Positions 3,280 through 47,690 of a stretch of DNA of 64,000 bases are shown here, one piece after another (positions within the stretch are counted from its first letter, which is position 1; the number at the start of each line of letters is the position of its first letter). Below the pieces are notes generated by a model. It saw only the letters and a program-made list of their open reading frames with translations, was not told the DNA's origin and made no database searches. Location of the stretch: assembly GCF_002009175.1 (NCBI RefSeq), contig NZ_CP018047.1:5890001-5954000 (forward strand), given 5' to 3'. The position numbers and the translations under genes were made by a program. The DNA comes from Streptomyces niveus. GTDB taxonomy: Bacteria; Actinomycetota; Actinomycetes; Streptomycetales; Streptomycetaceae.

Positions 3280-6200
3280 GTGAAACGCCCGCCCCTGCCC
3301 GCGCTCCCGCGCAGAACGGCCGTCGCCGTCGTGGCCGCCGCCCTGTGCGCGGCCCTGGTGCCCGCGCTGCCGGCCGTCGCCGCCCGCGCCCCGGCCCCGC
3401 CGTCGGACGCCCGGCTCGCCGGTGAACCCGCCCGTCACGACCTGACGCGGGAACAGTTCTACTTCGTGCTGCCCGACCGCTTCGCCAACGGCGACCGGTC
3501 CAACGACCGGGGAGGACTGACCGGTTCACGTACCCAGACCGGTTACGACCCCGCCGACAAGGGCTTCTACCAGGGCGGCGACCTCAAGGGGATCACCGAT
3601 CGGCTCGACTACATCAAGGGGCTCGGCACCACCGCCATCTGGATGGCGCCGATCTTCAAGAACAAGCCGGTGCAGGGCACGGGCGACGACGTGTCGGCCG
3701 GCTACCACGGCTACTGGATCACCGACTTCACCCAGGTCGACCCGCACTTCGGCACCAACGCCGAGCTGGAGAAGCTGATCGACAAGGCCCACGACAAGGG
3801 CATGAAGGTCTTCTTCGACGTCATCACCAACCACACGGCCGACACCGTCGACTACGCCGAGAAGAAGTACGGCTACCGCCCCAAGGGCGCCTATCCGTAC
3901 CTCGACAAGGACGGCCGCCCCTTCGACGACCGCGAGGGCATCGGCAGGGTCGACGCCGACGCGTTCCCGTACACGCCCGCCCCCAAGGCGGGCGAGAAGA
4001 AGGTCCCGTCCTGGCTCAACGACCCGACGATGTACCACAACCGGGGCGACTCCACCTTCGCCGGGGAGAGCTCCGAGTACGGTGACTTCTCCGGGCTGGA
4101 CGACCTGTGGACCGAGCGTCCCGAGGTCGTCGACGGCATGGCGGAGATCTACCAGAAGTGGGTCCGTGACTTCGACATCGACGGCTTCCGCATCGACACC
4201 GTCAAACACGTCGACCTGGACTTCTGGACCCAGTGGGCCACCGCGCTCGACGCCTACGCCGCCAAGCGCGGCCGCGACGACTTCTTCATGTTCGGCGAGG
4301 TCTACTCCGCCGACCCGGCCGTCACCTCGCCGTACGTGACGCGCGGGCGGCTCGACTCCACCCTCGACTTCCCCTTCCAGGACGCGGCGCGCGCCTACGC
4401 CTCGCAGGGCGCGCCCGCCGAGCGGCTGGGAAGGGTCTTCGCCGAGGACTACCGCTACACCACCGACAAGGCCAACGCCTACGAGCAGGTGTCGTTCCTC
4501 GGCAACCACGACATGGGCCGGATCGGCACCTTCCTCAAGCAGGACAACCCGGACGCCGGCGACGCGGAACTGCTGAAGCGGGCCCGCCTCGCCAACGAGC
4601 TGATGTTCTTCTCGCGCGGCAACCCGGTGGTCTACTACGGCGACGAGCAGGGCTTCACCGGCCCCGGCGGCGACAAGGACGCCCGCCAGAGCCTCTTCGC
4701 CTCCACGACCCCCGACTATCTGGACGACGACCAGCTCGGCACCGACCGGACGCACGCCTCCGACGCCTACGACCCCACGCACCCGCTCTACCGGTCCGTC
4801 GCGGAGCTGTCGAAGCTCACCGAGCGGCACCCGGCGCTGCGGGACGGCGTACAGACCGAGCGGTACGCGGCGGACTCCGTGTACGCGTTCTCCCGCACCG
4901 ACGCGCGTGAGCGGGTCGAGTACGTCGTCGCCGTCAACAACGCCGGCACGCCGAAGACCGTTCAGGTGCCGACCGGGTCGGCGCGCACCGACTTCCGTGC
5001 CCTGTACGGCACTTCGGGCACCGTACGCAGCGGGGCCGACGCGAAGGCCGAGGTCACCGTCCCGGCGCTGTCGGCGGTCGTCCTGCGCGCCGCCGCGCCG
5101 CTCGCGCCGCCCGCCGCCAAGCCCTCGATCACCCTCGAAGCACCGGCCTCCGGGGCCACCGGCACCGTCGAGCTCACCGCGGACGTCGACGGCGGGCAGC
5201 TCAACCGTGTCGTCTTCGCCGCCCAGGTCGGCAACGGCAAGTGGCGCACCCTCGGCAGCGCCGACCACGCCCCGTACAAGGTCACCCAGCATCTGGACGA
5301 CAAGGTGGCCGCCGGAACACCCCTGCGCTACAAGGCTGTTGTCGTCGACAGCCGGGGCCGTACCACCTCGGACCTCGCCTCCTCGACCGCGGGGCAGGCA
5401 CCCGCACCCGAGCCGCCCACGGCCGTCGAGCGCGAGCACGCGATCGTGCACTACAAGCGCCCCGACGGGAAGTACGAGGGCTGGCAGCTCAAGTCCGGCG
5501 ACAAGGCCGCCGAGTTCACCGGCCGTGACGCGTACGGCGCGTTCGCGTGGGTCGACGTCACCGAGGGCGCGACCACCGTCCCGTACGCCGTCGTCAAGGA
5601 CGGCACACCGGACGGACCCGAGCGCACCGTCGACCTCGCGAAGACCGGTGAGGTCTGGGTCGAGCAGGGCGCGGACGGCCAGAGCGAGAAGGCCCCCGAC
5701 GGCGCCTACCCGCCGCAGGACAAGACCAAGGCCGTGCTGCACTACCAGCGCGCCGACGGGAAGTACGACGGCTGGGGTCTGCACACCTGGACCGGCGCCA
5801 AGGACCCGACCGACTGGGCGAAGCCGCTGATGCCGGTGAAGCAGGACGCGTACGGCGTGACGTACGAGGTGCCGCTCGCCGAGGGCGCCACGTCACTCAG
5901 CTACATCCTGCACAAGGGCGACGAGAAGGACCTGCCGTCCGACCAGTCGCTCGACCTCGCGACGTACGGCAACGAGGTCTGGCTGCTCGGCGGCCGGCCG
6001 AAGTATCTGCTGCCGACGGCCGGCGCCGTACCCACGCCGGATCTCGGCAAGGCCGAGGCGCAGTGGATCGACCGGGACACCGTCGTCTGGAAGGTGAAGG
6101 CCACAGAGGCCACCAGCCAGCAGCTCGTGTACGCGCCCGACGGCGGCATCACCGTCGAGAACGGGGCACTGTCCGACGAGGGACAGTGGCTGCGGCTCGC

Positions 6201-27728: not shown

Positions 27729-28649
27729 TCAGCCGAGCCGCTTGCGCCAGTCCAGGTCCGGCACGTCGATCGCGGACCCCGGCGAACCGTCCCATTTCAC
27801 CGAAAGACCCGCGCCCGTCAGAGCCGCCGTGACCTCCCTGCCCACAGCCGCCGTCGTCTCCTGCGAGCCGTCGAACCCTCCGTAGTAGAGCGACAGCCCG
27901 CCCCCGAGAGCCACCGCCTCGGTGCACTGCGTATGGAAGAAGACGAAGCCGCGCACCGTCCCCGTGTCGCGGTCCTCGCGCTCGCCGCCGATCTCCGCCA
28001 GGCCGCAACCACGACAGCAGGCGAAGTTCTCGCGGGCCACTATGCCCCGCGCGTCCAGCTCCTCGAAGACCGCCGTGATCCGCTCCGGGTCGGTCTCGCC
28101 CACCCAGCCCGCCTGCTCCTCGATCCGCTCCAGCCAGAGCCGGTCCACGATCCGCCGGGCCTGCGCGGCGGAGACGGGCCGCTCGTCCCCGTCGACCAGC
28201 CACTCCTCGGCGTCCTCGGCGAGCTGCGCCCGTCCGTCGTACCCGCGCTTGATCAGCCCGCGAACGTATTCCTCGATCTCCAGTCTGGTCCCGTCGTCGA
28301 GCTCCGGCACCGGCTCGCGGTCCGGCAGCTCCACCGGATCCCAGACCACGCCCGCGTCCCAGCCGGGCTCCTGGCGGGCCCACGCGACCATGATCCGGGC
28401 CACCGACTCCGCGTCCGGCAGCTCCGTGCCGAACATCGTGCCGGGGGAGCCGTCCCGGTGCTCCAGCGTGTAGCTCCCGGCGCCGTCCCGCGCCACCTGG
28501 ATGAACACGTACGGCAGGTCGGGGATCCGGTTCACGGTCAGGAACTGGTCGTCGACACCCCCGATCCGCGCGACCAGCTCCCCGAGCCGGTCCGCCGAAA
28601 TCCGCTCGTATTCGCGCCAGTTCTCCGTCTTCACCCTGATGGCCAGCAT
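27729..28649 (-). CDS. DUF6891-like protein, predicted leaderless, DNA-damage promoter
   Basis: A 306-residue cytosolic protein of unknown function. The N-terminal third (MLAIRVKTENWREYERISADRLGELVARIGG) is a distinct small domain. The C-terminal 200 residues carry a CCRGCG cysteine cluster followed by FVFFHTQCTEAV and LSLYYGGFDG, as in DUF6891 proteins. The start at 28649 is fixed by a RecA-NDp-type promoter whose -10 box ends exactly 7 nt before the ATG; there is no Shine-Dalgarno, and the in-frame sequence upstream is the promoter itself. Expression in response to DNA damage is therefore predicted. Confidence 0.82.
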   Translation of the reverse strand: MLAIRVKTENWREYERISADRLGELVARIGGVDDQFLTVNRIPDLPYVFIQVARDGAGSYTLEHRDGSPGTMFGTELPDAESVARIMVAWARQEPGWDAGVVWDPVELPDREPVPELDDGTRLEIEEYVRGLIKRGYDGRAQLAEDAEEWLVDGDERPVSAAQARRIVDRLWLERIEEQAGWVGETDPERITAVFEELDARGIVARENFACCRGCGLAEIGGEREDRDTGTVRGFVFFHTQCTEAVALGGGLSLYYGGFDGSQETTAAVGREVTAALTGAGLSVKWDGSPGSAIDVPDLDWRKRLG

Positions 28650-28656
28650 GGGGTTC

Positions 28657-28679
28657 ACTCTGGCACGGGCCACTGACAA
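28657..28679 (-). promoter_or_regulatory. RecA-NDp (PafBC-type) promoter of the DUF6891 gene
   Basis: On the minus strand TTGTCAGTG (28679-28671), an 8-nt spacer and CAGAGT (28662-28657) are followed by 7 nt and the ATG at 28649. It matches the mycobacterial DNA-damage element TTGTCRGTG-N8-TAnnnT except for C at the first -10 base. Confidence 0.75.
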
Positions 28680-28741
28680 CTGCCCTCCGGCCCCGGGCTC
28701 CCGGTAGCCGGCAGCCAGGCAGCCGGCCTCCGGCGGCAAGG

Positions 28742-29857
28742 TCACTTCAGCAGGGCGCCGAATCCCGCCGCGCGGATCCGGCGCACGATCTCCTCGGGCG
28801 TCGTGCCCAGTTGCTCCGCCGTCCGCCGCAGATGCCAGTCGTTGTCGGCCAGGCTGTTCAGCAGATGACCGCGTCTGATCTGTGCCGGGGCCAGCCGGAA
28901 CGTCTTCAGGTACGCCGTGCGCCCCTTGTGGTCGGTGATCAGCTCACCGATGTGCTGCCCTCCGGAGTCGAGGCGGAACGGCGGCAGGAAGCGGTACATG
29001 TCGAACGACGCCATGCGGTAGACCCGCTCGAACGAGTAGGAGGTGCCGAGCAGTTCACGCGCCATGACCGAGTCGTGCGACTCGCGCCACGCCAGCTCCT
29101 GCGCACGTGCGGCGGCCCGCAGATCGGCGAGTGTCCCGATGTGCCTCCCGTCGCCGAGCCGCGCCTCGAAGTCCGGTACGGGCGCGCCGAAGTGGCCGTA
29201 CTGATGGATCAGCTCCCCGTACATGTCCTGGAGCAGCGTCGGGTGCAGGGCGCGGTAGTCGTCGGGGTGCGGCACCACGAAGGCGGCGGCGAGCGCGTCC
29301 GCGACGTACACCAGCAGCCCGCACTGGCCCGGATGGATCTCGAAGACCCGCAGCGCGTCGGCGAGTCCGGGCACGTCGAGCCCGAGGTAGGCCGCCTCGG
29401 AACGGGGCGACAGACCCTGCCGCAGCGCCTCCTGCGACCACTGGTTCCAGGCGATCGCCGGGCCGCCGAAGTGCAGCGCCAGATAGCCCTCCATGGCCAG
29501 GTGCAGCGGCAGGAACCGGCAGCGCGTGACGGCGCCGCCCTGCTGCCCCTTCTTGGAAGGGCGCCGCTTGACCATGCGGTGATGCCGGACGACCGCCATG
29601 CCCGTGGGCCGCGCGGTGTCCAACTGCGTTCCGTAGGAGGCCGACTGCTCGCCTGACCAGTCGGCGACGAGCCCGTGCGGGATGTACGACACGTAACCGA
29701 TGCCCGGCGACACCAGGACCTCGCCGAACCGGTCGTACACCTCCCGGTGCAACCGCAGCCCCGGCACCGGCTCCTCGCGCACCAGCGGCACGAGGCGCAC
29801 CCCGCCCCACACCTGCGCCGGGCACACCGTCAGCCTGGTGAAGTCCAGCCCGGTCAC
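28742..29857 (-). CDS. ARPP-like protein with C-terminal Fis-type helix-turn-helix
   Basis: A 371-residue protein. The N-terminal motif LTVCPAQVWGGVRLVPLV resembles proteins annotated with ARPP-type domains (I recall ARPP-2 in streptomycete annotations but cannot verify it). The central region is rich in aromatic and His residues (VVRHHRMVKRRPSKKGQQGG; LALHFGGPAIAWNQWS). The last 45 residues form a Fis-like helix-turn-helix (HLLNSLADNDWHLRRTAEQLGTTPEEIVRRIRAAGFG), normally a DNA-binding module. GTG start at 29857 overlaps the TGA of the upstream TROVE/vWA gene by 4 bp, so the two are translationally coupled and probably form one functional unit, perhaps an RNA-binding ribonucleoprotein system. 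Function unproven. Confidence 0.65.
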   Translation of the reverse strand: MTGLDFTRLTVCPAQVWGGVRLVPLVREEPVPGLRLHREVYDRFGEVLVSPGIGYVSYIPHGLVADWSGEQSASYGTQLDTARPTGMAVVRHHRMVKRRPSKKGQQGGAVTRCRFLPLHLAMEGYLALHFGGPAIAWNQWSQEALRQGLSPRSEAAYLGLDVPGLADALRVFEIHPGQCGLLVYVADALAAAFVVPHPDDYRALHPTLLQDMYGELIHQYGHFGAPVPDFEARLGDGRHIGTLADLRAAARAQELAWRESHDSVMARELLGTSYSFERVYRMASFDMYRFLPPFRLDSGGQHIGELITDHKGRTAYLKTFRLAPAQIRRGHLLNSLADNDWHLRRTAEQLGTTPEEIVRRIRAAGFGALLK

Positions 29858-31341
29858 CGTCCCCCGCCTCCCTCGTACCTATGTAGAAAGTTCTCGATCC
29901 GCCGGTCCAGATACGCCTGGAGCTCGGCCAGTCCGGTACGGCCCTCGGCGAACTGCGCGATCTCCGCCAGCGCCGGAAGGTCCTCGGCGTCCCGGATCCC
30001 CGCCGTCGGCACACTCGCCGCCAGCCTGCGCACGTCGAAGTCGTCCGCGTCGTACACCGGATTCAGATGGACGACCGTCGTACGCCGCTCCCGGTCCAGG
30101 CGGGTGCGCCACACCCGCAGGACCTCGCCCGCCAGCCCCGGAGGCGCGTTGTCCCAGCCGTCGGAGACGATGACGAGCCGGTCGGGGGCGTACTCCAGCG
30201 CGTCGACGAGGCGCGTACCGAGCGGCGTCGGGCCGTGGGGGCGTACCAGAAGCGGGTCCGTACGGCCCGAGGTCCACCACGCGCCGTACGACCCCGGCGC
30301 CGCCAGCGCCTCCAGCAGGAAGTGCCCGCCGAGCGCGACACCGAGCGGACGGCGGCGCTTCTCGCCCGAACCGGACGAGGAGTAGCTGTCGTCCAGGACG
30401 GCGGCGACGCGCCCCCATGTCCCGGCGTACGCCCCCGCCGCCCGGCGCGCGGCCCTGCGCAGCGCGCCCGTCAGCTCCGCGCGCCGGCGTATCCGCTCCT
30501 CCACCGGCAGTGACAGGGCGTAGAGCGCGAGCCTGGTCAGCGGCATGACGGAGAGGTCCGTCCGCACGGCGGCCCCCTTCTGGTCCGCGCCCGACTCGCG
30601 CTGCGTGCGCAGCCGTTCGTGCCGGGTCATCCGGGGCGCGATCCGCTCCACGAACGCCGAGCGCTTCACACCGTGCTTGGCCGCGAAGCCCTCGGCGACG
30701 GTGAACGGCAGCTCGTAGAGCGCGCCCTGCTCGTAGTGCGCGCGGCGGTGCGCGTCGAGCAGCCCGTGCTCGTACCGCGGTCGTACGCCCGGCGCGAAGA
30801 GGAAGTCGCCCAGTTCGCCGGCGGCCGGGCCCGCGCCCGTGGCCGACTTCAGCGGCAGATGGAAGTGGCGTGCCGCGGTCTTCAGCCCGTCGCGGTACTT
30901 CACCGCGTCGTGTCCCAGGTCGGGCCGGGCGGCCAGCCAGTCGCGCAGGATCGCGCGGGTACGGCGGTTGGAGACCTTCGCGGCGCGCAGCGCGCGGAAG
31001 AGACGGTAGACGCGCTGCGGCGGCAGCAGCGCCAGCCGCGCGGCGATCAGCCGGCCCTCCGCCCGCTTCTGGTCCTGGCCCCACTCCCCGGCCTCGCCCG
31101 CCGTGCGCAGCAACTGCTCCACGATGCGGGCCGCGTTGTGGTCGTTGATGTCGAGTGCGAGCGAAGCGGCGTACACGGTGCGGTAGTTGACCCGTACGTA
31201 CTCATGGAGGAAGTCGAGCGACAGCCGCTGCCGGTGGGCCTCGGAGCGGAACTCGCGCTGACCGGTGGACGTGACGGCGGCGTTGACGAAGAGCAGTACG
31301 TCCTCGGCAGCGATCAGGTCGGAGCAGGTCTCCTCCGTCAT
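29854..31341 (-). CDS. TROVE-like/vWA protein (Ro60-type architecture)
   Basis: A 495-residue protein. The first 270 or so residues are helical-repeat and resemble the TROVE ring of Ro60/Rsr (LPPQRVYRLFRALRAAKVSNRRTRAILRDWL; AVKYRDGLKTAARHFHLPL; ERIAPRMTRHERLRTQRES). The C-terminal 190 residues are a vWA fold with a MIDAS-like DDSYSSS, a threonine in GPTPLGTRLVDAL and IVSDGWDN. In Ro60 proteins this pair holds structured RNA such as Y RNA and helps RNA quality control after stress. The ATG at 31341 has GGGGAGA about 11 nt upstream; the in-frame extension upstream is not conserved-looking. It is coupled to the ARPP-like gene through a 4-bp GTGA overlap. The TROVE call rests on motif resemblance only. 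Confidence 0.6.
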   Translation of the reverse strand: MTEETCSDLIAAEDVLLFVNAAVTSTGQREFRSEAHRQRLSLDFLHEYVRVNYRTVYAASLALDINDHNAARIVEQLLRTAGEAGEWGQDQKRAEGRLIAARLALLPPQRVYRLFRALRAAKVSNRRTRAILRDWLAARPDLGHDAVKYRDGLKTAARHFHLPLKSATGAGPAAGELGDFLFAPGVRPRYEHGLLDAHRRAHYEQGALYELPFTVAEGFAAKHGVKRSAFVERIAPRMTRHERLRTQRESGADQKGAAVRTDLSVMPLTRLALYALSLPVEERIRRRAELTGALRRAARRAAGAYAGTWGRVAAVLDDSYSSSGSGEKRRRPLGVALGGHFLLEALAAPGSYGAWWTSGRTDPLLVRPHGPTPLGTRLVDALEYAPDRLVIVSDGWDNAPPGLAGEVLRVWRTRLDRERRTTVVHLNPVYDADDFDVRRLAASVPTAGIRDAEDLPALAEIAQFAEGRTGLAELQAYLDRRIENFLHRYEGGGGR

Positions 31342-31498
31342 GATGTCGTTGTCTCCCCGTGTTCCGGTGCGTTGGCGTGTCACGGCTCCGCGCATGCGGA
31401 AGCCGGCCGGGGCATGGGGGCGCGATCAGCGAAATTATTGCTTCAGAGGCAAGTCCCGGAAGTCGCACCGGAGGCCCGCGGCCGGCTCTCGAAACGTA

Positions 31499-31516
31499 GC
31501 ACCGGGGGTCCGGTGC
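31499..31516. terminator. Hairpin in the divergent spacer
   Basis: GCACCGG (31499-31505) pairs with CCGGTGC (31510-31516) over a GGGT loop between the TROVE/vWA and oxidoreductase genes. These are divergent, so this is more likely an operator or RNA element than a terminator. Confidence 0.3.
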
Positions 31517-31578
31517 GGCGCCACCCAATTCCCGGTCCGCTCTGGGCCGGGGCGGGTGCGGGCGGCACACTGATCCGT

Positions 31579-32544
31579 ATGAGCCAGCTACGCATCGCAC
31601 TCCTCGGCACCGGCCCCTGGGCCGAGCGCACGCACGCCCCCGCCATCGCGGCGCATCCGGACGTCGTGTTCAGCGGCGTCTGGGGGCGGCGCCCCGAAGC
31701 CGCGGCCGCGCTCGCCGCCGCCCACGGCACCACGGCGTACGCCGGAGGTGGTGAGGGCGACGGGGACGGCGGTTCGGGTGGTGCCGGTGGTGCGGGCGGT
31801 CTGGAAGGGCTCGACGCGCTGCTCGCCGTGAGCGACGCCGTCGCCTTCGCCCTGCCGCCCGATGTCCAGGCTCCGCTCGCCGCACGCGCGGCGGCGGCCG
31901 GCTGCCACCTCCTCATGGACAAGCCGGTCGCGACGACCGTGCCCGGCGCACGCGCCGTCGCGGACGCCGCCGAACGCGCGGGCGTCGCCTCACTCGTCTT
32001 CTGCACGCTCCGCTTCGCCCCCGGGACGGCGGAGTGGGTCGAGGAACAGGCCGCGGTGGGCGGCTGGTTCACGGCACGCGCCCACTGGCTCGGCGCGCTG
32101 TACGGGTCGGGCGACAGGAGCCCGTACGCCGACTCGCCCTGGCGCCGGGAGAAGGGCGGCCTGTGGGACGTGGGCCCGCACGCGCTCTCCGCGCTGCTGC
32201 CGATCCTGGGCGATGTGACGGGCGTGACGGCCGTACGGTCCGAGCCCGACCTCACACATCTGGTGCTCACGCACACGTCGGGCGTGACGAGTTCGGCGGT
32301 GCTGAGCCTGAGCGCCCCGGAGAAGGGCGCGGGCGCGGGGCTCGAACTGCGCGGCGAGCACGGGACGGCGGTACTCCCCGAGGGCTGGGGCGATCCGGCG
32401 GACATCTTCGGCACGGCGATCGACGCCCTGCTCACGGCGGCGCGCACGGGCCGACCGCACGCGTGCGACGTGCGGTTCGGCCTGCGCCTGACGGAGATCC
32501 TCGCCGAGGCGGAGGGTCTGATCGCTCGCGGGGCGACCGGTTGA
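31579..32544 (+). CDS. Gfo/Idh/MocA-family NAD(P)-dependent oxidoreductase
   Basis: A 321-residue cytosolic dehydrogenase. The N-terminal Rossmann motif is LRIALLGTGPWAERTHAPAI. The family lysine sits in MDKPVATTVPGARAVADAA (DKP instead of EKP). A substrate half follows with WDVGPHALSALLPILGDV (GxxxDxGxH-type motif) and a C-terminal beta sheet. A Gly-rich insertion (GGGEGDGDGGSGGAGGAGG) near residue 60 interrupts the Rossmann fold between strands and is unusual. ATG at 31579; CACACT lies 7 nt before the ATG and no Shine-Dalgarno is visible, so it may be leaderless. It is divergent from the TROVE/vWA operon. Substrate unknown (sugar or inositol-like by family). Confidence 0.88.
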   Translation: MSQLRIALLGTGPWAERTHAPAIAAHPDVVFSGVWGRRPEAAAALAAAHGTTAYAGGGEGDGDGGSGGAGGAGGLEGLDALLAVSDAVAFALPPDVQAPLAARAAAAGCHLLMDKPVATTVPGARAVADAAERAGVASLVFCTLRFAPGTAEWVEEQAAVGGWFTARAHWLGALYGSGDRSPYADSPWRREKGGLWDVGPHALSALLPILGDVTGVTAVRSEPDLTHLVLTHTSGVTSSAVLSLSAPEKGAGAGLELRGEHGTAVLPEGWGDPADIFGTAIDALLTAARTGRPHACDVRFGLRLTEILAEAEGLIARGATG

Positions 32545-32574
32545 CGCCCGTGGGCCGAGGTCCGCGGACCGATC

Positions 32575-33210
32575 TCAGCCCACTCGTTCGATCCGGGCGT
32601 TGCGGATCAGGAACTTGCCGGGCTCACGGACCTGTTCGAACGCCGCGTCGTTGAGCAGCGCGCAGCTGCCCGACGCTGCGGTGACCTGGACCGTGGTGGA
32701 TTTGTCGTTGTCGAGGTTGGTCACCTTCAGCGTGGTGCCGACGGGGAACTCGTTGCTGGACGCCGCCGGGGCGCCGGCCTCGCCGGACAGCGTGACGGTC
32801 GATCCGGCACAGACGACCTCACCGGCCCGGCCCGGATCCGAGCCCGCGCCTTCGCCGGCGTCCTCCTCGCCGGCGGCGGGCGGCGCTGCCTCGGCCGGGG
32901 GTGCCTCGGCGGGCGGCGCCGCGCCCGTGTCGCTCGCGCCCACCTCGCACCCGGACGCCGCCTGCTTCCGCCTGATCTCCTCGATCACGTCCTGCCGGTT
33001 CTTGATCCGCGCGTCGGACAGGGCGTCCGGAGCGGCCCGCTGGCCGTCGATGAAGCGCTGGTTGTTCGCGAGGGCCGTGTTCAGCCCGTCGCACTCCACC
33101 GAGGCCTGGCTGGTGCCGGTCATCGCCACCGCCGTACCGCCCACCAACGCGACCGCGCCGACGAGCAGGGCGATCTTCTTCTTCCGGCTGAAGGATTTCT
33201 TGCGCGACAC
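32575..33210 (-). CDS. Secreted protein with expansin/DPBB-like C-terminal domain
   Basis: A 211-residue exported protein. GTG start at 33210 behind CAGGAG. A Lys/Arg-rich N-terminus is followed by a signal helix (IALLVGAVALVGGTAVAM), a short Cys-containing helical domain (ECDGLNTALANNQRFIDGQRAAPDALSDARIKNRQDVIEEI) and a Pro/Ala/Glu linker. The last 80 residues contain PVGTTLKVTNLDNDKSTTVQV, reminiscent of RlpA/double-psi beta-barrel proteins. The third-Cys pattern (CAGST ... SGSC) may form a disulphide. Function unknown; possibly cell-wall interaction. It converges with the oxidoreductase gene 30 bp away. Confidence 0.75.
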   Translation of the reverse strand: MSRKKSFSRKKKIALLVGAVALVGGTAVAMTGTSQASVECDGLNTALANNQRFIDGQRAAPDALSDARIKNRQDVIEEIRRKQAASGCEVGASDTGAAPPAEAPPAEAAPPAAGEEDAGEGAGSDPGRAGEVVCAGSTVTLSGEAGAPAASSNEFPVGTTLKVTNLDNDKSTTVQVTAASGSCALLNDAAFEQVREPGKFLIRNARIERVG

Positions 33211-33439
33211 GTGGGGCTCCTGTTCCCGGCCGCGAAGGGCGGCCGGCTGGGTTTCCGTGTGCCGTTACGTACGGGTGGGGAGCCGCTTCCGCTCAAGCGC
33301 CCCGGCGGCAACTTCCCTGACGCCAGCGCCAGTTCGGCTTCCGGTCATTCGGTGACCGCCTCGTGCACACCGAGCAGGAACCGCCGCACGGCCGCGACTG
33401 CTGCCGATTGTCCCTCAAACACCGTCTGGCCAGGGGCGA

Positions 33440-33462
33440 TTGTCAGTGGGGGGCGGTAGAAT
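33440..33462 (+). promoter_or_regulatory. RecA-NDp (PafBC-type) promoter, exact consensus match
   Basis: TTGTCAGTG (33440-33448), 8 nt, then TAGAAT (33457-33462): a perfect fit to the element TTGTCRGTG-N8-TAnnnT that drives LexA-independent DNA-damage genes in mycobacteria. Start point expected near 33470, giving a leader of about 38 nt for the gene at 33508. Confidence 0.8.
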
Positions 33463-33507
33463 TGTAAGTGTTCGTGAGGGTTCCACCACCGTGCCGGGAG
33501 GTCGCCG

Positions 33508-33795
33508 ATGGCCGTTGCCACAATCACGACGAAGCTCTTCGACATCACACAGCCAGCAGCCAGGACCGTGCAGCGCAAGCCACTGCCCGCGGGACAGCCC
33601 CGTGAGTGGTACGAGACCCACAACCGCCGCCTCAAGGCCATGCGCCTCGCCATCGCCCTGCTCGACTCGGGCGTGTACCACCCGGCGAGCGCGACCAACC
33701 GGAAGATACGTGCGACGGCGTCGCTGACGGGTATCCATCCCCCGTCGGACACGACGTGCCGCATGGTGCGCGCCCTGATCCGCTACGGGCGCTGA
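33508..33795 (+). CDS. Small conserved streptomycete protein, predicted DNA-damage inducible
   Basis: A 95-residue basic protein with no signal or membrane helix. Start MAVATITTKLFDITQPAARTV; conserved-looking core LPAGQPREWYETHNRRLKAMRLAIALLDSGVYHPA; C-terminal SLTGIHPPSDTTCRMVRALIRYG. The basic helices could bind nucleic acid. The ATG at 33508 has GGGAGG 5-10 nt upstream. The promoter is an exact RecA-NDp match, and a 14-bp-stem terminator follows, so it is a monocistronic gene. I do not recognise a characterised family. Confidence 0.8.
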   Translation: MAVATITTKLFDITQPAARTVQRKPLPAGQPREWYETHNRRLKAMRLAIALLDSGVYHPASATNRKIRATASLTGIHPPSDTTCRMVRALIRYGR

Positions 33796-33840
33796 AGGAG
33801 CCGGCCGCGCCGAGGGGCGGCGGACGGTGAGATAGCGAAG

Positions 33841-33885
33841 CCCCGGTGCGGGACCGGTGGAGGCACCTGTCCCGCACCGGGGTTT
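33841..33885 (+). terminator. Rho-independent-like terminator
   Basis: CCCCGGTGCGGGAC (33841-33854) pairs perfectly with GTCCCGCACCGGGG (33869-33882) and is followed by TTT. It lies 45 bp after the small basic-protein gene. The loop can itself pair (GGTG/CACC). Confidence 0.85.
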
Positions 33886-34043
33886 CCCGTACGCGGACGA
33901 CCGGCGGGGGCGGGTGCCCGCTCGGCCGGCGCGTCCGGCATGCTGAGGCCGGTGACCTCATCCGAAGCCGGGCACATACACGTACACGCGCGCCGGCCGT
34001 CAGCGACAGAGCCGCCGCGACCGTCGACCCGTGCGCGAACGCG

Positions 34044-34967
34044 ATGAACGCCGTCCTCTTCGGCTTCCTGCCCATCTGGGTGATCACCGGCCTCGGCTGG
34101 GTGGCCGCGCGTCACGACATCCTCGGGAGCCAGGCCCAGCACGTCCTCGGGCGCTTCGCCTTCACCTTCGCCATGCCGGCCCTGCTGTTCCTGGCGATGG
34201 CCGGAGCCGATGTGACCGCCCTGCTGAACGTCGGCGTCCTCGTCTTCGCCATCAGCCTGGTCGTCGTCTTCGCCGCCGGACTGCTGATCAGCCGCTGGGT
34301 GTTCCGGCGCAGCCAGGCCGAACAGGCCATCGGTGCGATGGGGGCCGGTTACGTCAACTCCGCCAACCTCGGCATCCCGGTGGCCGTACACGTCCTCGGC
34401 GACACCTCCTTCGTCATCACCGTGGCCCTGTTTCAGATGCTTTTCATCGCGCCGGTCGTGCTCGTCCTCCTCGATCTGGACGTACGTCGCGAGACACGCG
34501 GACGCGCCGCCCGGATGCTCCAACTGCCCTTCCGCAACCCGATCATCGCGGCCTCCCTCGCCGGAGTGGCCGTGTCGGCGCTCGGCCGGCCCCTTCCCGC
34601 TGAGGCGACCGCACCGCTCGAACTGCTCGGCGACGCCGCCGTCCCGGCCGCCCTCTTCGCGCTCGGCATGTCCCTCAACACCCGTGTGCGCCCGGACTCG
34701 TCCGCACGCGCCGAACGGGCCCTGCTGGTCGCCCTCAAGATCGTGGCCCAGCCGCTGCTCGCCTACGCCGTCGGCCACTGGCTGTTCGGGCTGAGCGGCC
34801 ACACCCTGTTCGCCGTCGTGATCTGCGCGGGGTTGCCGACGGCGCAGAACGCCTTCATCTTCGCTTCCGAGTACCGGCTGAACACCGACCTCGCCAGGGA
34901 CACCGTCATCCTGTCCACGCTCTGCTCGATGCTGTCCCTTTCGGTGATCACCTGGCTTCTCGTCTGA
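34044..34967 (+). CDS. AEC-family (auxin efflux carrier-like) transporter
   Basis: A 307-residue inner-membrane permease with about ten hydrophobic helices, starting VLFGFLPIWVITGLGWVAA. It has the family's conserved N-terminal FAFTFAMPALLF segment, the AGYVNSANLGIPVA motif with Asn at the crossover, and a matching C-terminal repeat containing ICAGLPTAQNAFIFASEY. It probably exports a small organic anion or amino-acid derivative. The ATG at 34044 is the first start before the first helix; the long in-frame sequence upstream spans the previous gene's terminator and is not coding. The 3' end overlaps the convergent GNAT gene by 20 bp. Confidence 0.88.
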   Translation: MNAVLFGFLPIWVITGLGWVAARHDILGSQAQHVLGRFAFTFAMPALLFLAMAGADVTALLNVGVLVFAISLVVVFAAGLLISRWVFRRSQAEQAIGAMGAGYVNSANLGIPVAVHVLGDTSFVITVALFQMLFIAPVVLVLLDLDVRRETRGRAARMLQLPFRNPIIAASLAGVAVSALGRPLPAEATAPLELLGDAAVPAALFALGMSLNTRVRPDSSARAERALLVALKIVAQPLLAYAVGHWLFGLSGHTLFAVVICAGLPTAQNAFIFASEYRLNTDLARDTVILSTLCSMLSLSVITWLLV

Positions 34968-35526
34968 CCCACCGCACCTCGCCGTCGTGCCATTCGTCGG
35001 TGGGCTCCAGACCCACGGCGCGGGCGACGGCCCCCGACGCCGCGTGGTCGGGGTGGACATGGGCGGCTGTCTCGCGCACCGAGCGCTGTTCCAGCCAGTC
35101 CACCAGCCCGCGCGCCGCCTCGCTCGCGATGCCCCGCCCCTGGAAGGCGGTCCCCACCACCCAGGCGATCTCCGCGACGAGCCCCGACCCGGACGGGCTG
35201 ATCGTCGCCTGGACCGTGCCCGTCAACGGCCCCTGTCCCAGCCCCTCTTCGCCGTCCCCGTCCCCTTCCCGGAGCCGGATGACCCAGTTGCACCAGGACT
35301 CCGCCGGATCGGCAGGTCCGGCGGCCATGCGCGCGTACCGCGAGCGCAACTCGTCGGCGGTCGCGGGCGCACCCCCGATGAAGGTGTGCAGCGCCGGGTC
35401 CGACAGCACATCCGCCATCTCCGACGCGTGCTCCACCCGCTGCGGCACCAGCACCAGCCGCTCCGTCCGGATGACCTCCGCCTCGACGCGCCCCGTCGCC
35501 CGGCCTTCCCGCCCCAGATTCTCCAT
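34948..35526 (-). CDS. GNAT-family N-acetyltransferase, predicted leaderless, DNA-damage promoter
   Basis: A 192-residue acetyltransferase of the RimJ/RimL type. It begins with IRTERLVLVPQRVEHASEMADVL, ends with VGLEPTDEW, and has the acetyl-CoA loop VVGTAFQGRGIASEAARGLVDWL (Q/RxxGxG/A). The start at 35526 is fixed by a RecA-NDp-type promoter whose -10 box ends 7 nt before it; an in-frame ATG at 35535 would overlap the promoter and there is no Shine-Dalgarno. A Glu/Gly/Asp-rich insertion (REGDGDGEEGLGQGP) lies in the middle. Expression after DNA damage is predicted. The substrate could be a protein N-terminus, amino acid or drug. Confidence 0.87.
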   Translation of the reverse strand: MENLGREGRATGRVEAEVIRTERLVLVPQRVEHASEMADVLSDPALHTFIGGAPATADELRSRYARMAAGPADPAESWCNWVIRLREGDGDGEEGLGQGPLTGTVQATISPSGSGLVAEIAWVVGTAFQGRGIASEAARGLVDWLEQRSVRETAAHVHPDHAASGAVARAVGLEPTDEWHDGEVRWVRREAR

Positions 35527-35533
35527 GTGACTC

Positions 35534-35556
35534 ATAGTGACATCGACCACTGACAA
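35534..35556 (-). promoter_or_regulatory. RecA-NDp (PafBC-type) promoter of the GNAT gene
   Basis: On the minus strand TTGTCAGTG (35556-35548), an 8-nt spacer and CACTAT (35539-35534), then 7 nt and the ATG at 35526. The architecture is identical to that at 28657-28679 and 37049-37071. Confidence 0.75.
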
Positions 35557-35598
35557 TCGACCGGGGACCGGGTGCATCCGGCAAACAGGCGGACCCGG

Positions 35599-37014
35599 TC
35601 AGAGCCACCGCGCCGGGTCGGTGCCCCACATCGACGGCGGACCGGCCCAATCGTCCGGCCCGCCCTCGTAGTTGACCGGCGACCGGACATACCGCAGCTC
35701 GCCGTACGGCGAGGGTGTCCCGGCCATCCACGCCTCGGCGTCGTACGCCTCCGTCAGGTCCCCCTCCGCACGGTCACTCGCGGGCTCCGGCCGGATGCCA
35801 CGCATCAGCCACGACGCGGTCCCGGCGAGCGAGAGCCGCAGTTGCCGGCCCGCGCCGTCGTCGCGACGCTCCGTGAGCGCGCGCAGGATCGCTGCCGCGA
35901 GGAGATAACCCGTGCTGTGGTCCAGCGCCTGTGCGGGCAGTGCGCCGGGCCGCCCGTCCGGTCCCCGTTCGATGAGGGAGATCCCCTTCGCGGCCTGCAC
36001 CAGCGAGTCGAATCCGCGCCGGTCCCGCCACGGCCCCGCCCAGCCCCAGGCGTCGAGTCGCGCCACGATCAGTCCGGGGTGGCGCTCCAGCAGGGTGTCC
36101 GGAGCGAGTCCGTACCGGTCGAGCGCGTCGGCGCGGTAGCCGAGGACCACGACATCCGCCGAGTCGAGCAGTCCCTCGAAGACCGCCAGATCGGCCCGGG
36201 CGCCCAGGTCCAGTCGGGTGGAGCGCTTGCCGAACCCGGTGTCGGCGTGGGCCTTCGGGTCCTCGGGCGGCCGAGGCGGGTCGACGCGCAGCACGTCGGC
36301 CCCGAGCAGTCCCAGCGTGCGGGTGGCCACGGGTCCCGCGATGACACGGGTCAGATCGAGGACCCGCACCCCGTGCGCCGGCAGCGCCCCTTCCGCCGCC
36401 GACGACGCACGCGGACGACGACGAGCGGCGGCACGGCCCGTACCGCCCGCCACCTGCCGGCTTTCGATCAGCGGCCACCGGTCCGTCCCCGGCTCCGCCA
36501 CGGCGACCGCCAGCCCGCCCGCCGCGTACACCGTCTCCTCGACCCACCCGGCCGTCCGCGTCCTCAGCTCATCGGCCAGCCGCTCACACACCGCGCTGTC
36601 GTCGTCCCCGCCGTCGTCGCGGATGCCCAGCGAGGACAGCAACCGGGCGCGGTGGTGCGGGTAGTTGGCATGCGTCCGTACCCAGCCGTCGGCCGTGGGC
36701 CAGAACGAGGAGAGCGGGGCGAACGGGGACCAGGTCCGTCCGTCGATCCGCAGATGCCGCTCGCTGACGAACGCCGCCCCGACGGCCGCCTCGTGCACCC
36801 GGACCGCCGGTGTCTCCCGCCCGGACCGCCGCGCCGCCAGCTCGGCGGCCGCCAGTGAGCAGACCCCCACGCTCGCCCGCGCCAACTGCCGTACGGGCAA
36901 CCGCGACGGCAGCACACCGGGAGCGGGTACGTACGTCACCCTCCCCGCCGACTCCGGTGCGCCCCCGAGCGCGCTCCAGGCGTGCGCGGTCGCCGCGTCG
37001 ACGTCCTGTTCCAC
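35599..37014 (-). CDS. CaiB/BaiF (family III) CoA-transferase
   Basis: 471 residues, longer than the usual 380-410. GTG start at 37014 with GGGAGGA upstream; the extended frame to 37098 would cover the neighbouring promoter. The C-terminal two thirds begin with the family start HGVRVLDLTRVIAGPVATRTLGLLGADVLRV, followed by GFGKRSTRLDL and the YxxDALDRYGL segment. The Asp after GxP in other members (catalytic Asp of the CoA-transferase) is not obvious in the visible order. The first 185 residues match the C-terminal half-like domain (ERHLRIDGRTWSPFAPLSSFWPTADGWVRTHANYPHHR), so the order of halves is unusual or permuted. It moves CoA between carboxylic acids; substrate unknown. Confidence 0.85.
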   Translation of the reverse strand: MEQDVDAATAHAWSALGGAPESAGRVTYVPAPGVLPSRLPVRQLARASVGVCSLAAAELAARRSGRETPAVRVHEAAVGAAFVSERHLRIDGRTWSPFAPLSSFWPTADGWVRTHANYPHHRARLLSSLGIRDDGGDDDSAVCERLADELRTRTAGWVEETVYAAGGLAVAVAEPGTDRWPLIESRQVAGGTGRAAARRRPRASSAAEGALPAHGVRVLDLTRVIAGPVATRTLGLLGADVLRVDPPRPPEDPKAHADTGFGKRSTRLDLGARADLAVFEGLLDSADVVVLGYRADALDRYGLAPDTLLERHPGLIVARLDAWGWAGPWRDRRGFDSLVQAAKGISLIERGPDGRPGALPAQALDHSTGYLLAAAILRALTERRDDGAGRQLRLSLAGTASWLMRGIRPEPASDRAEGDLTEAYDAEAWMAGTPSPYGELRYVRSPVNYEGGPDDWAGPPSMWGTDPARWL

Positions 37015-37048
37015 GAGCGATGTCCTCCCTGTCCCGCTGAAGCCGGGG

Positions 37049-37071
37049 TTGTCAGTGGCAGGTGCCAGAAT
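37049..37071 (+). promoter_or_regulatory. RecA-NDp (PafBC-type) promoter of the FGE-like gene
   Basis: TTGTCAGTG (37049-37057), 8 nt, CAGAAT (37066-37071), then 7 nt to the ATG at 37079. One mismatch to TAnnnT. Confidence 0.75.
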
Positions 37072-37078
37072 TCCCATC

Positions 37079-37891
37079 ATGTCTCTCGCCGACCTCACTT
37101 TCGACCGCTGGCGCGCCCTGGACCGGGACGCCGCGCACCGCCTCGCGCTCGAAGCCGCGCGGTCGGCGGACGGGCGGCTGGTGGAGTTCGACGGCGCGCC
37201 CCACCTCGGTGGTGTTCTCCACCGCGCGGTGGTCGAGCGCGGGGGACAGCGGTTCGCCCTGATACCCGGCGGCGAGGTGACGGTCGGATTCGACCTGGAG
37301 AGCTGGCGGCCCCTGCCGGAGCAGCTCGGCTCCTACCGGACGGAGACCCTCGCCGGCGGATTCGGCTTCGACGACGACCTCACGGCCCATCTCGCGCGGT
37401 ATCTGACCCCGAGGCGTACGGCCTCGGTGCCCACCGTGCTGATGGCGGTGGAGCCGTGGGAGCTTCCCGACGAGGCCGATTCCGTCATGGAATTCCTCAC
37501 GGAGCAGGAGTTGCGGCTGCCCGCTCCGGACGAGTGGGAGCACGCCTGCGGGGCGGGCGCGCGGACGTTGTTCCGCTGGGGTTCCGCCTGCCCGCTGGAC
37601 CGGGAGCCGTACGGGGACCACGACGACCCGGCCGGCCATCGGCGCCGGACGAACGCCTTCGGTCTGCGAATAGCCCGCGACGTCTACGAGGCGGAGGCGA
37701 CGTCCGATCCGGGATCCGTCTACGGCGGAGACGGCGGCGAGGCGGTCTGCGGTGGTTACGGCGCCTTCGTCGCATGGCTGCCGCTGGCGACCGCCAACCG
37801 CAACCCCGGCATGGCCGAATTCCTCAACGGACCCGAGGGTGAGGACATGGGCGACGAGTTCGGTGTCCGGCCCGTGCTCGACCTCGGCTGA
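37079..37891 (+). CDS. SUMF1/formylglycine-generating-enzyme-fold protein, predicted leaderless
   Basis: A 270-residue protein. The central motif LRLPAPDEWEHACGAGARTLFRWG is the FGE-sulfatase/SUMF1 signature (RLPTEAEWEYA...YPWG), followed by a degenerate RTNAFGLRIARDVYEAE (in place of N.FGLYDM.GNVWEW) and a C-terminal EFGVRPVLDL. The N-terminal 120 residues include GQRFALIPGGEVTVGFD, the usual start of the fold. The paired catalytic cysteines of true formylglycine-generating enzymes are not clearly present (Cys in ACGAG, SACPL, AVCGGYG), so it is probably a binding or modified-function member. The ATG at 37079 is leaderless by promoter position. Damage-inducible by prediction. Confidence 0.75.
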   Translation: MSLADLTFDRWRALDRDAAHRLALEAARSADGRLVEFDGAPHLGGVLHRAVVERGGQRFALIPGGEVTVGFDLESWRPLPEQLGSYRTETLAGGFGFDDDLTAHLARYLTPRRTASVPTVLMAVEPWELPDEADSVMEFLTEQELRLPAPDEWEHACGAGARTLFRWGSACPLDREPYGDHDDPAGHRRRTNAFGLRIARDVYEAEATSDPGSVYGGDGGEAVCGGYGAFVAWLPLATANRNPGMAEFLNGPEGEDMGDEFGVRPVLDLG

Positions 37892-45599: not shown

Positions 45600-47690
45600 C
45601 TACCAGGGGGAGGGGGCGGGTGGCGCGACCACGGGCGGCCGGTCGTCACAGGTGATCGTGTTCGGCAGCAGCCACGGCGCCAGCCACGACTCCGTACCCC
45701 GGCCCCCGTCGTTGCCGCCGAGGTCGGTCAGCGCGAACTCGGAACCGGCGGGCGTGAAGTTGAACGAGCCGCAGTTGTTGACGCCGACCGCGCCCACACC
45801 GCGCGCGTCCACGTTCTCGAAGGACGCGGATCCCTTCACCCGGGCGCTGACCGCCGACGTACCCGTCCCGTCGATCCGGACGTCCTTGAAGCGGACGCCC
45901 TCGATCGCGTACAGGTCCTTCACCGCGTAGTCGCTGACCAGCATGATCGCGTTGTACGTGCTGTCGAGATAGTGGTCGCCGGTCACCCGGACGTCCGCGT
46001 CGATGTCCTTGTCGAGCGCGTAGAGCCAGATGGCTCCCAGCCCGATCCTCCAGTTCAGCTCGTAAGTCCCGGCGCGCACCGTGGTGTTGTCGGTGAAGCT
46101 CAGCCGCCCGGTGAACTTCTCCGCACCGAAGCGGGACCCGGCGTGCAGCGCGCTGCCCTCCCGGACCGGGTCGGCGACGAGATTGTCCGAGACGGTGCTG
46201 TCCGTGCCGCCGTAGATCGCGATGCCGTTGGCCAGGACCGGTGACTGCACGGTGTTGCGGGTGAAGGTGTTCCGCGCGTTGGCGGTCTTCTCCGACCACA
46301 TCGCGAGACCGTCGTCGCCCGTGTTGCGGACGAAGTTGTCGGACACGACCGAATCCGTCACTCCCGTATGGAAGTTGAGGGCGTCGGCGATCTGGTCGAC
46401 GACGATGTTGCCGGTGACGCGGACGTTCGACATCGGTCCGTCGAACCACAGTCCGACCTTGGTGTGCCGGATGTGCAGCCCCGTGATCGTGGAGTCGCTC
46501 ATCGCCCCGCCGACGCCGTTGACCTGGTCGGTGTCGATCCGCTCCCGTACGTCGCCCTCGATCGCGAAGCCGGACAGATGGACGTCGCGGCTGCCGCCGT
46601 CCGCCGCGTCCTTGCCGTAGAAGCCGACTCCGGTGTGGACGGAGCCGTCGGGTGCGGGCTCGTCGAGAGTGATCTGGCGGCCCTTGATGACGGTGTGCCA
46701 GTTTCCCGCGCCCTCGATCGTGACGTCGTCCACCAGGATGTGACGGTTCACCTGGTAGGTGCCGGGCGGGATGTAGACCTTGAGGTTCTTGCGCTTCGCG
46801 TGGGCGATGGCCCGGTCGAAGGCGTCGGCGGAGTCGCGCCGGCCGAGCGGATCGGCGCCGAACAGAACCACGTTGGCGGCGACCAGCCGCACATGCGGCG
46901 CGGCGACGAGCTCCGAGTCGAGCAGGTCCACGACCGTCCAGTCGGCCTTGCTGCCGGCCGGCACCGTCAGCCGGACCTTGTCCCCGGCGCGGTACGTCTT
47001 GCCGAGTCTCAGGCGCTGCTCGTCGTAGAAGTGGCTCGGGCGGAACGGCTTCGTGATGACGGGTGCGGGGGTGGTCGCGGCGGGCACGCACGCGCACTCG
47101 GTGATCCACCAGTCGGGGTGCAGCAGATCGGCGCCCGGATCGTTGGAGAAGGGGTACTGGTTGTAGAGCCACGCGTACTGCGAGGTGAGCGTCATGGTCT
47201 TACGGGCCTTGCCGTTGACCGTGACGTCGAGGGGCGCGGTGATGCCGCCGCCCCCGGGCGCGTCCGGGATGCTGTAGCGCACGGTGATCGCGTCGGCCGG
47301 GCCGGGCAGGGTGAACTCGACGTACTGCTTCGGCGTGAGCTTCACCGCCGTACGGCCGGAGGCCTCGGAGGGCAGCGTGTACGCGGTCCGGTCCGGCCCG
47401 ATGACCGCCCCGTTCGTCGCGGCGTTCTCCGCCTCCTGCTCGGCGAACGCGACGCGGGCGCCCCGGCCCGCGACGAGCGCCGGGTCGAGGGCGGCGCGGG
47501 TGACGACGGGACCGGCGGACCGGCCGTCGGGGGCCGCTAGGGCGGTGCCGCCACCGCTGAGCAGGCCGATTCCGACGGCGGCCGCGGTCACCGCGGCGAG
47601 CGTCCGGGCGCGTCCGCGGGCATGTCCGCGGACAGGTCTGCCGGCACCTCTGCGGGCGCGTTCGCGTGCGCCGGTGAGACTCCACGACAT
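45600..47690 (-). CDS. Secreted GH87-like alpha-1,3-glucanase/mycodextranase
   Basis: 696 residues. ATG 47690, supported by a promoter at 47776-47805 that excludes the upstream ATG at 47831; the Shine-Dalgarno is weak. An Arg-rich N-terminus and signal peptide to about residue 53 are followed by a jelly-roll/CBM6-like domain (about 80-245) with VDLLDSELVAAP, then a right-handed beta helix beginning LGRRDSADAFDRAIAHAKRKN. The catalytic region shows DQIADALNFHTG and NTGDDGLAMWS (Asp459-Asp460), matching the GH87 DGxNxH...GDD pattern. It probably degrades mutan or nigeran-type alpha-glucan. A short C-terminal Pro tail ends at 45600. Confidence 0.8.
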   Translation of the reverse strand: MSWSLTGARERARRGAGRPVRGHARGRARTLAAVTAAAVGIGLLSGGGTALAAPDGRSAGPVVTRAALDPALVAGRGARVAFAEQEAENAATNGAVIGPDRTAYTLPSEASGRTAVKLTPKQYVEFTLPGPADAITVRYSIPDAPGGGGITAPLDVTVNGKARKTMTLTSQYAWLYNQYPFSNDPGADLLHPDWWITECACVPAATTPAPVITKPFRPSHFYDEQRLRLGKTYRAGDKVRLTVPAGSKADWTVVDLLDSELVAAPHVRLVAANVVLFGADPLGRRDSADAFDRAIAHAKRKNLKVYIPPGTYQVNRHILVDDVTIEGAGNWHTVIKGRQITLDEPAPDGSVHTGVGFYGKDAADGGSRDVHLSGFAIEGDVRERIDTDQVNGVGGAMSDSTITGLHIRHTKVGLWFDGPMSNVRVTGNIVVDQIADALNFHTGVTDSVVSDNFVRNTGDDGLAMWSEKTANARNTFTRNTVQSPVLANGIAIYGGTDSTVSDNLVADPVREGSALHAGSRFGAEKFTGRLSFTDNTTVRAGTYELNWRIGLGAIWLYALDKDIDADVRVTGDHYLDSTYNAIMLVSDYAVKDLYAIEGVRFKDVRIDGTGTSAVSARVKGSASFENVDARGVGAVGVNNCGSFNFTPAGSEFALTDLGGNDGGRGTESWLAPWLLPNTITCDDRPPVVAPPAPSPW

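Follow-up and report, generated by a model that had tools for sequence, protein, structure and literature searches.

Candidate RecA-NDp/PafBC-type promoters at four genes of Streptomyces niveus and at a genus-wide set of targets in Streptomyces

The window analyzed here is a 64,000-nucleotide (nt) stretch of Streptomyces niveus DNA (G000:C1:5890001-5954000, from a 7.99-Mb genome in a single contig). It contains four genes, g1 to g4, each faced by a copy of one promoter-like element: the 9-mer TTGTCAGTG, a spacer of 8 nt and a −10-like hexamer, together TTGTCAGTG-N8-YANNNT, which we searched for in the more general form TTGTCRGTG-N8-YANNNT. A first-pass annotation of this DNA had taken the four elements for DNA damage promoters of the mycobacterial RecA-NDp/PafBC type, and a pattern scan bore out the four positions exactly, with each element facing a gene start (Table 1). 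The DUF6891 and GNAT names given to g1 and g3 likewise agreed with Pfam profiles that scored above their cut-offs.

The −26 element TTGTCRGTG and the 8-nt spacer are present at all four sites, and the complete element was found exactly four times, against 0.01 expected from shuffles of the window; no fifth site appeared in the window when one mismatch was allowed. The annotation had also stated that the 9-mer is identical in the four elements and had noticed no other exact copy. For the A-form, TTGTCAGTG, there is none in the window; two copies of the G-form, TTGTCGGTG, lie at 4461-4469 (−) and 46087-46095 (+), neither of them with a fitting −10 sequence. The TAnnnT consensus that it had carried over for the −10 region survives at one site of the four, the other three having CAnnnT together with an extended −10; writing the first base as [TC] had covered these C-first sites but left the CAnnnT/extended −10 class unexplained. 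At sites 1, 3 and 4 an ATG lies exactly 7 nt past the −10 hexamer, and leaderless mRNAs are therefore predicted. At site 2 the ATG lies 45 nt past the hexamer and is preceded by GGGAGG.

Table 1. Genes and promoter-like elements of the window, numbered from its first nucleotide, and cas3 loci carrying the 9-mer
Feature	Position	Strand	Description
g1	27729..28649	−	306 aa; DUF6891 (PF21831), E 5.5e-61, 206.2 bits (cut-off 27); predicted leaderless
Element 1	28657..28679	−	TTGTCAGTG at 28671-28679; TG in N8 at 28664-28665; −10 CAGAGT at 28657-28662; g1 ATG 7 nt downstream
TGGCCAG box	33427..33433	+	Upstream of element 2; by eye in 32/48 g2 promoters
Element 2	33440..33462	+	TTGTCAGTG, N8, −10 TAGAAT, without TG
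g2	33508..33795	+	95-aa basic protein, no known family
g3	34948..35526	−	GNAT acetyltransferase (PF13302), E 3.4e-20, 73.6 bits (cut-off 25.4); predicted leaderless
Element 3	35534..35556	−	TTGTCAGTG, TG extension, −10 CACTAT; g3 ATG 7 nt downstream
Element 4	37049..37071	+	TTGTCAGTG, TG extension, −10 CAGAAT; g4 ATG 7 nt downstream
g4	37079..37891	+	270-aa protein
cas3 loci with TTGTCAGTG	G000:C1:7399519-7399541 (own genome)		L275-L278, L281, L283, L284, L288, L291

A scan of the whole S. niveus genome, which the annotation had proposed as a check, returned 39 sites, 26 of them with A at position 6 of the 9-mer, and a single site for the reversed pattern. When the −10 sequence was limited only to a last base other than A, TTGTCAGTG gave 41 sites against 8 for the control, and 26 of the 41 had YANNNT. 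The same scan of genomes of the genus found 4520 sites against 111 for the control, a count in which the sites of relatives are not mutually independent. The element was present in 101 of 101 genomes, at 15 to 79 sites per genome (median, 41), and none of the 101 had a count at or under five times its own control. Across 246 genomes of the phylum, strong enrichment was seen in Streptomyces. Enrichment was weaker in another family of the same class (f3; six genomes with 7 to 21 sites, G being at position 6 in most of those listed), and a further family of the class (f4) was perhaps enriched in one genome, with 8 sites. Outside the class no genome had more than 7 sites, and the one with 7 carries the string as a tandem repeat.

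We scanned the frames downstream of the 39 S. niveus sites with Pfam and NCBIfam profiles, leaving out L024; the frame behind L012 is not a gene. Among the genes found were those for RecA, a DNA polymerase I-type protein (polA), a separate 5′-3′ exonuclease, RuvC, an NAD-dependent DNA ligase, a uracil-DNA glycosylase-superfamily protein (UDG), an Lhr-type helicase and a YoaA/DinG-type helicase. Other sites precede genes for ribosomal protein S6 (behind which the ssb gene presumably lies), a sigma factor, a divergent MoxR/SWIM pair, a HEPN protein, PhoH, Cas3 and a TnpB-type transposase. At 17 of the 39 sites an ATG or GTG of a frame of at least 90 codons lies 6 to 7 nt past the hexamer, and no alternative spacing between 0 and 59 nt occurred at more than three sites. 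The 17 include recA (L006), counted by a GTG at 7 nt; it is probably a false member, because the RecA profile starts at residue 20 of this frame and an ATG is available at 43 nt. The site L003 precedes a gene for a macrodomain protein that matches chain 5e3b at E 1.7e-75, a chain that we take to be SCO6735 itself, and this apparently SCO6735-like gene with its element may serve as an internal control. SCO6735 of S. coelicolor is a macrodomain protein with a RecA-NDp promoter and 5-fold induction by UV (PMC5087735).

Some of these sites have a setting of their own. L001 (G000:C1:23460-23482), near the contig start, is an exact element 43 nt ahead of the ATG of an IS605 OrfB/TnpB-type gene. At G000:C1:2946322-2946394, a MoxR-type AAA gene and a SWIM zinc-finger gene are separated by two elements placed back to back, and pairs of elements in a similar arrangement also occur in the relatives G013 (5359151-5359256) and G096 (3938188-3938269).

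We looked across the genus to determine how far g2 and its promoter are conserved. Of 61 genus genomes, 56 had a g2 gene. In the order the gene was present in 126 of 147 genomes, these 126 being Streptomyces without exception, and it was found in none of the 14 genomes listed from other genera; g2 is near-universal in Streptomyces and confined there as far as sampled. Upstream of 57 g2 matches the element was exact in 48, had one change in seven and two changes in one, and was absent from one, a second copy in G057. A survey of named genomes, comprising the best 80 of 582 candidates, gave exact elements at 77 loci, one mismatch at two and none at one, again a second copy, and in a control stretch 1.5 kb further upstream the element was found, within one change, in 1 of 78. 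The 77 exact loci include those of S. gardneri, S. exfoliatus and S. narbonensis, which we take to be relatives of S. venezuelae. A GTTCG stretch lies soon past the −10 sequence (33470-33474 in the window) and was seen by eye in 34 of 48 g2 promoters.

The g2 protein could not be placed in a known family: no family or sequence match was found in Pfam, NCBIfam, PHROG or the PDB, and the predicted structure gave no confident fold match, to helix-turn-helix proteins or to others. An alignment of 26 of 30 sequences (four were left out, the wrong start having been picked) nevertheless has 31 invariant columns, which form a conserved core, and three helices are predicted in the conserved C-terminal part. 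The best-named relatives of the g2 and g4 proteins come from S. niveus and other Streptomyces.

Counting matches at E < 1e-20, which left out weaker ones in three genomes, we found g1 in 20 of the 61 genomes. Its element was there within one mismatch in 18 of the 20, 11 of them exact (S. niveus included), and 16 of the 18 sites have an ATG or GTG at 6 to 7 nt. The g1 match of G018 covers the C-terminal part only, and the element there precedes a shorter frame. Around the named g2 loci, g1 fell inside the 7-kb flanks in 11 of 80, with the element exact in three, one base off in seven and two off in one. Between g1 and g2, window positions 28742-31395 encode two proteins, one matching ARPP-2 (PF22549, E 8.6e-119) and the other, of 513 aa, with no family match; neither gene has an element of its own in the window, and matches to both proteins also lie between g1 and g2 in L151.

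The g4 gene is rarer, being present in 10 of the 61 genomes. Its own element is exact in S. niveus and G044 and has one mismatch in G039; in G053, G029 and G052, g4 is the next gene behind g2, after gaps of 90, 478 and 81 nt, and the nearest element is that of g2. Among the named g2 loci, g4 was matched in six of 80, one match being a 42-residue piece, and its own element was found in one, S. niveus NRRL 2466. The annotation had called g4 like formylglycine-generating enzyme. A few g4 relatives do carry that name or the name sulfatase-modifying factor, but no Pfam or NCBIfam family matched at E 0.1. The g4 model is of low confidence (mean pLDDT, 65.8) and found no fold match at E 0.001; EgtB/OvsA chains recurred among its matches, and the best E value was 0.3, to CalU17.

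The annotation had further proposed an undescribed damage-response island. If the 39 sites were placed at random, the simulated probability of four lying within 8415 bp would be 3.2e-4, and g1 and g2 lie at most about 9 kb apart in 12 of 21 stretches (S. niveus included, fragments counted), stretches that had been picked for the presence of g2. The rows of that comparison for the GFO and AEC queries, whose translations were out of frame with nine stops each, were left out, and the label VWA used there is unsupported because the protein has no family hit. A single inherited island of four genes was rejected, g3 having relatives without the element and g4 being present in so few genomes. From the pattern in relatives, the cluster is better described as a conserved pair plus two accessory genes than as one unit. 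What stands of the proposal is thus the pair of genes with conserved damage-type promoters: g1, with the extended −10 form, and g2, with the TAnnnT form, would make up a conserved unit, g4 appears to be an optional, occasional partner of g2, and g3 would have acquired its own element in this lineage.

We then compared the two kinds of −10 sequence in 181 distinct sites from five genomes, the four relatives being represented by 150 listed sites of 201. TG at spacer positions 6 and 7 was found in 32 of 83 C-first hexamers and in none of 98 T-first hexamers (Fisher p 2.7e-13). C-first hexamers also had A more often at position 5 (47/83 versus 6/98). TG placed one base nearer the hexamer was also commoner in the C-first sites (14/83 versus 1/98), which an extended −10 reading does not explain. 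With the −10 sequence unselected, S. niveus had TG in 0 of 16 TANNNT sites and 12 of 25 others (p 0.001). Among its sites outside coding frames the counts were 7/13 C-first and 0/21 T-first, with L007, L012, L016, L024 and L034 left out; L007, L016 and L034 were apparently dropped just because their own gene's frame stays open upstream. Genus-wide, 648 of the 4520 sites have the TG, and 7 of the 150 listed from these 648 are T-first by eye. By gene, TG is present in 18 of 18 g1 sites; it is missing from all 54 g2 sites that have an 8-nt spacer and no more than one change, and these are all T-first. We read this as an extended −10 (TGn) that would make up for a weak hexamer. We found no mention of an extended −10 class in PafBC-type promoters in the literature covered; it is a new point here that may already be in print.

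The same alternation can be seen ahead of cas3. Of 30 cas3 loci surveyed, nine have TTGTCAGTG upstream of the Cas3 HD domain at a distance of up to about 170 nt, one (L274) has CTGTCAGTG ahead of cas3, and in 20 no element was found. Among the nine, TG is missing from the four sites with TANNNT and present in the five whose hexamer differs. These sites raise the possibility of a tie between CRISPR interference and DNA damage in some species.

Single-stranded DNA activates PafBC in mycobacteria, where PafB reads the −26 motif and PafC holds domain 4 of σA (PMC11804915). A 2022 study of LexA in S. venezuelae noted that Streptomyces encodes PafBC homologues and left open whether the genus has a PafBC-type response (PMC9380542). 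In S. niveus, two adjacent WYL genes (6,607,520-6,608,509 and 6,608,528-6,609,499) match the PafB-type and PafC chains of 7p5x, a PafBC entry (PMC10936776), at E 9e-55 and 3e-53. The pair lies about 1.6 kb behind the gene for the Pup ligase PafA (TIGR03686), from which two FKBP-type genes separate it, and a gene for a proteasome alpha subunit is nearby. By analogy, we infer that PafBC binds at the elements.

Taken together, the genus-wide enrichment, the repair genes downstream, the SCO6735-like control, the encoded PafB and PafC, and the conservation at g1 and g2 strongly support the promoter reading of the annotation. We consider it highly probable, at roughly 85%, that the four elements are RecA-NDp/PafBC-type promoters whose mechanism carries over from mycobacteria. 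On sequence grounds, element 2 would be a member of that type and elements 1, 3 and 4 a variant of it. Damage induction, the transcription start sites and the functions of the four proteins are what we infer from this.

Several observations weigh against this reading or limit its reach. Only element 2 has the TAnnnT hexamer, elements 1, 3 and 4 combining CAnnnT with TG, and compensation by an extended −10 is not the whole story, because 51 of the 83 C-first sites lack TG at positions 6 and 7. No element within one mismatch was found at g1 in two of its 20 genomes (G020 and G052) or at the g4 locus in four of its ten (G030, G016, G043 and G038). The list of downstream genes is not pure, since several have no DNA repair annotation, among them those for an ABC transporter permease, an MFS transporter, an FAD-dependent oxidoreductase and a glyoxalase-type protein. 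Two of the 39 sites, L012 and L024, are probably not promoters because they lie inside other coding frames. L012 (G000:C1:3109457-3109479), which is among the sites most often repeated in the genus listings, is on the opposite strand within its frame and was therefore probably kept for the protein sequence. These two sites, and the frequency of the 9-mer core with one mismatch (52 in the window, 19 expected), are what could be said for chance strings. The shuffles and the reversed-pattern controls, in S. niveus and in the genus, led us to reject chance, which retains a negligible probability; for g1 and g2 it is refuted because the element is conserved upstream of them. The position of g3 is less secure. 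No element was found upstream of its 29 relatives other than the S. niveus gene itself, nor of the five relatives near g2 in named genomes, and it is possible, if rather doubtful, that g1 and g2 (and g4) are the only genuine members, the g3 element being recent or fortuitous and of no physiological weight. Yet that element matches exactly, has the TG and is followed 7 nt on by a start codon, a combination beyond chance for the window.

Other regulators have also to be considered. The GTTCG stretch of many g2 leaders resembles half of a LexA box, for which we take GAACNNNNGTTC to be the pattern. A search for GAACNNNNGTTC up to 150 nt from each of the four elements, with one mismatch allowed, gave no match, and an exact box was found near just one of the 39 sites (L011). 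Streptomyces does have a LexA response (PMC9380542), but with no box near the four elements we reject LexA/SOS control of the four genes, with the element incidental, as very improbable. A further reading is a real promoter class that acts under another stress or is read by a different activator, which might be a SARP-like sigma adaptor or another WYL protein. The genome has ten WYL matches, so another regulator could read the element; AfsR, too, works by sigma adaptation in Streptomyces; and an initial search in the S. venezuelae study suggested a lack of conservation of the M. smegmatis motif in that species (PMC9380542). Against this, the element has the very sequence of the PafBC element of mycobacteria, two genes of the mycobacterial regulon, recA and ruvC (PMC8223512), are downstream here as well, the pafB-pafC pair is present, and the SCO6735-like gene carries the element. 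We regard a different activator or stress as unlikely.

If the four elements are PafBC-type promoters, single-stranded DNA made by damage would bind the WYL domains of PafBC, by analogy with mycobacteria. PafB would then read the −26 element TTGTCRGTG while PafC held region 4 of the housekeeping sigma factor, enabling RNA polymerase to start at promoters with a poor −35 sequence. Streptomyces would use two kinds of −10 sequence: TAnnnT by itself, and a weaker hexamer, CAnnnT in most cases, that TGn often rescues. Many transcripts are predicted to begin at the start codon. A wider proposal, whose chances we judge to be evenly balanced, is a genus-wide Streptomyces PafBC damage regulon in which two interchangeable core-promoter classes are kept gene by gene, as at g1 and g2, with g2 as a core part and with cas3 included in some species.

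The RecA-NDp/PafBC-dependent promoters of mycobacteria were reportedly described by Gamulin in 2004 and Mueller in 2018. The Streptomyces elements share with them TTGTCRGTG, the 8-nt spacer and the −10 sequence, recA and ruvC downstream, and pafBC near pafA; they differ in the second class of CAnnnT with TGn, in the A at position 6 in most S. niveus sites, and in the accessory genes g1, g2 and g4. Ahel in 2002 is said to have reported the RecA-NDp promoter of Streptomyces recA. The RecA-NDp promoters of recA and SCO6735 are of the same kind and from the same genus (PMC5087735), and recA and a SCO6735-like gene are among the 39 sites; whereas those were single genes, the set here is genus-wide and has g1, g2 and g4 as new members. 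SARP/AfsR activators likewise give the housekeeping sigma factor a docking point other than the −35 element and have been likened by their authors to PafBC, but both the box and the activator are different (PMC10936776). The LexA/SOS system of S. venezuelae is a damage response of the same genus but uses a repressor and an SOS box (PMC9380542), a box not found at the four genes.

The RecA-NDp promoter is known to reach past mycobacteria to other Actinobacteria (PMC8223512). In the open-licence literature, as far as its accessible text goes, we found no description of this Streptomyces regulon; new here are the list of targets across the genus, the g2 protein and the class of promoters with an extended −10. 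The same signature before repair genes and g2 across the genus suggests that Streptomyces has such a damage regulon, and the S. venezuelae motif search that came out negative (PMC9380542) should be revisited. With the element in every sampled genome of the genus and a list of candidate targets in hand, the PafBC question becomes directly testable. In g2, the genus has an uncharacterized protein that is kept behind a predicted damage promoter in nearly every sampled genome, and the two −10 classes offer a natural promoter series in which to study how a weak −10 sequence is tolerated by an activator that takes the place of the −35 contact.

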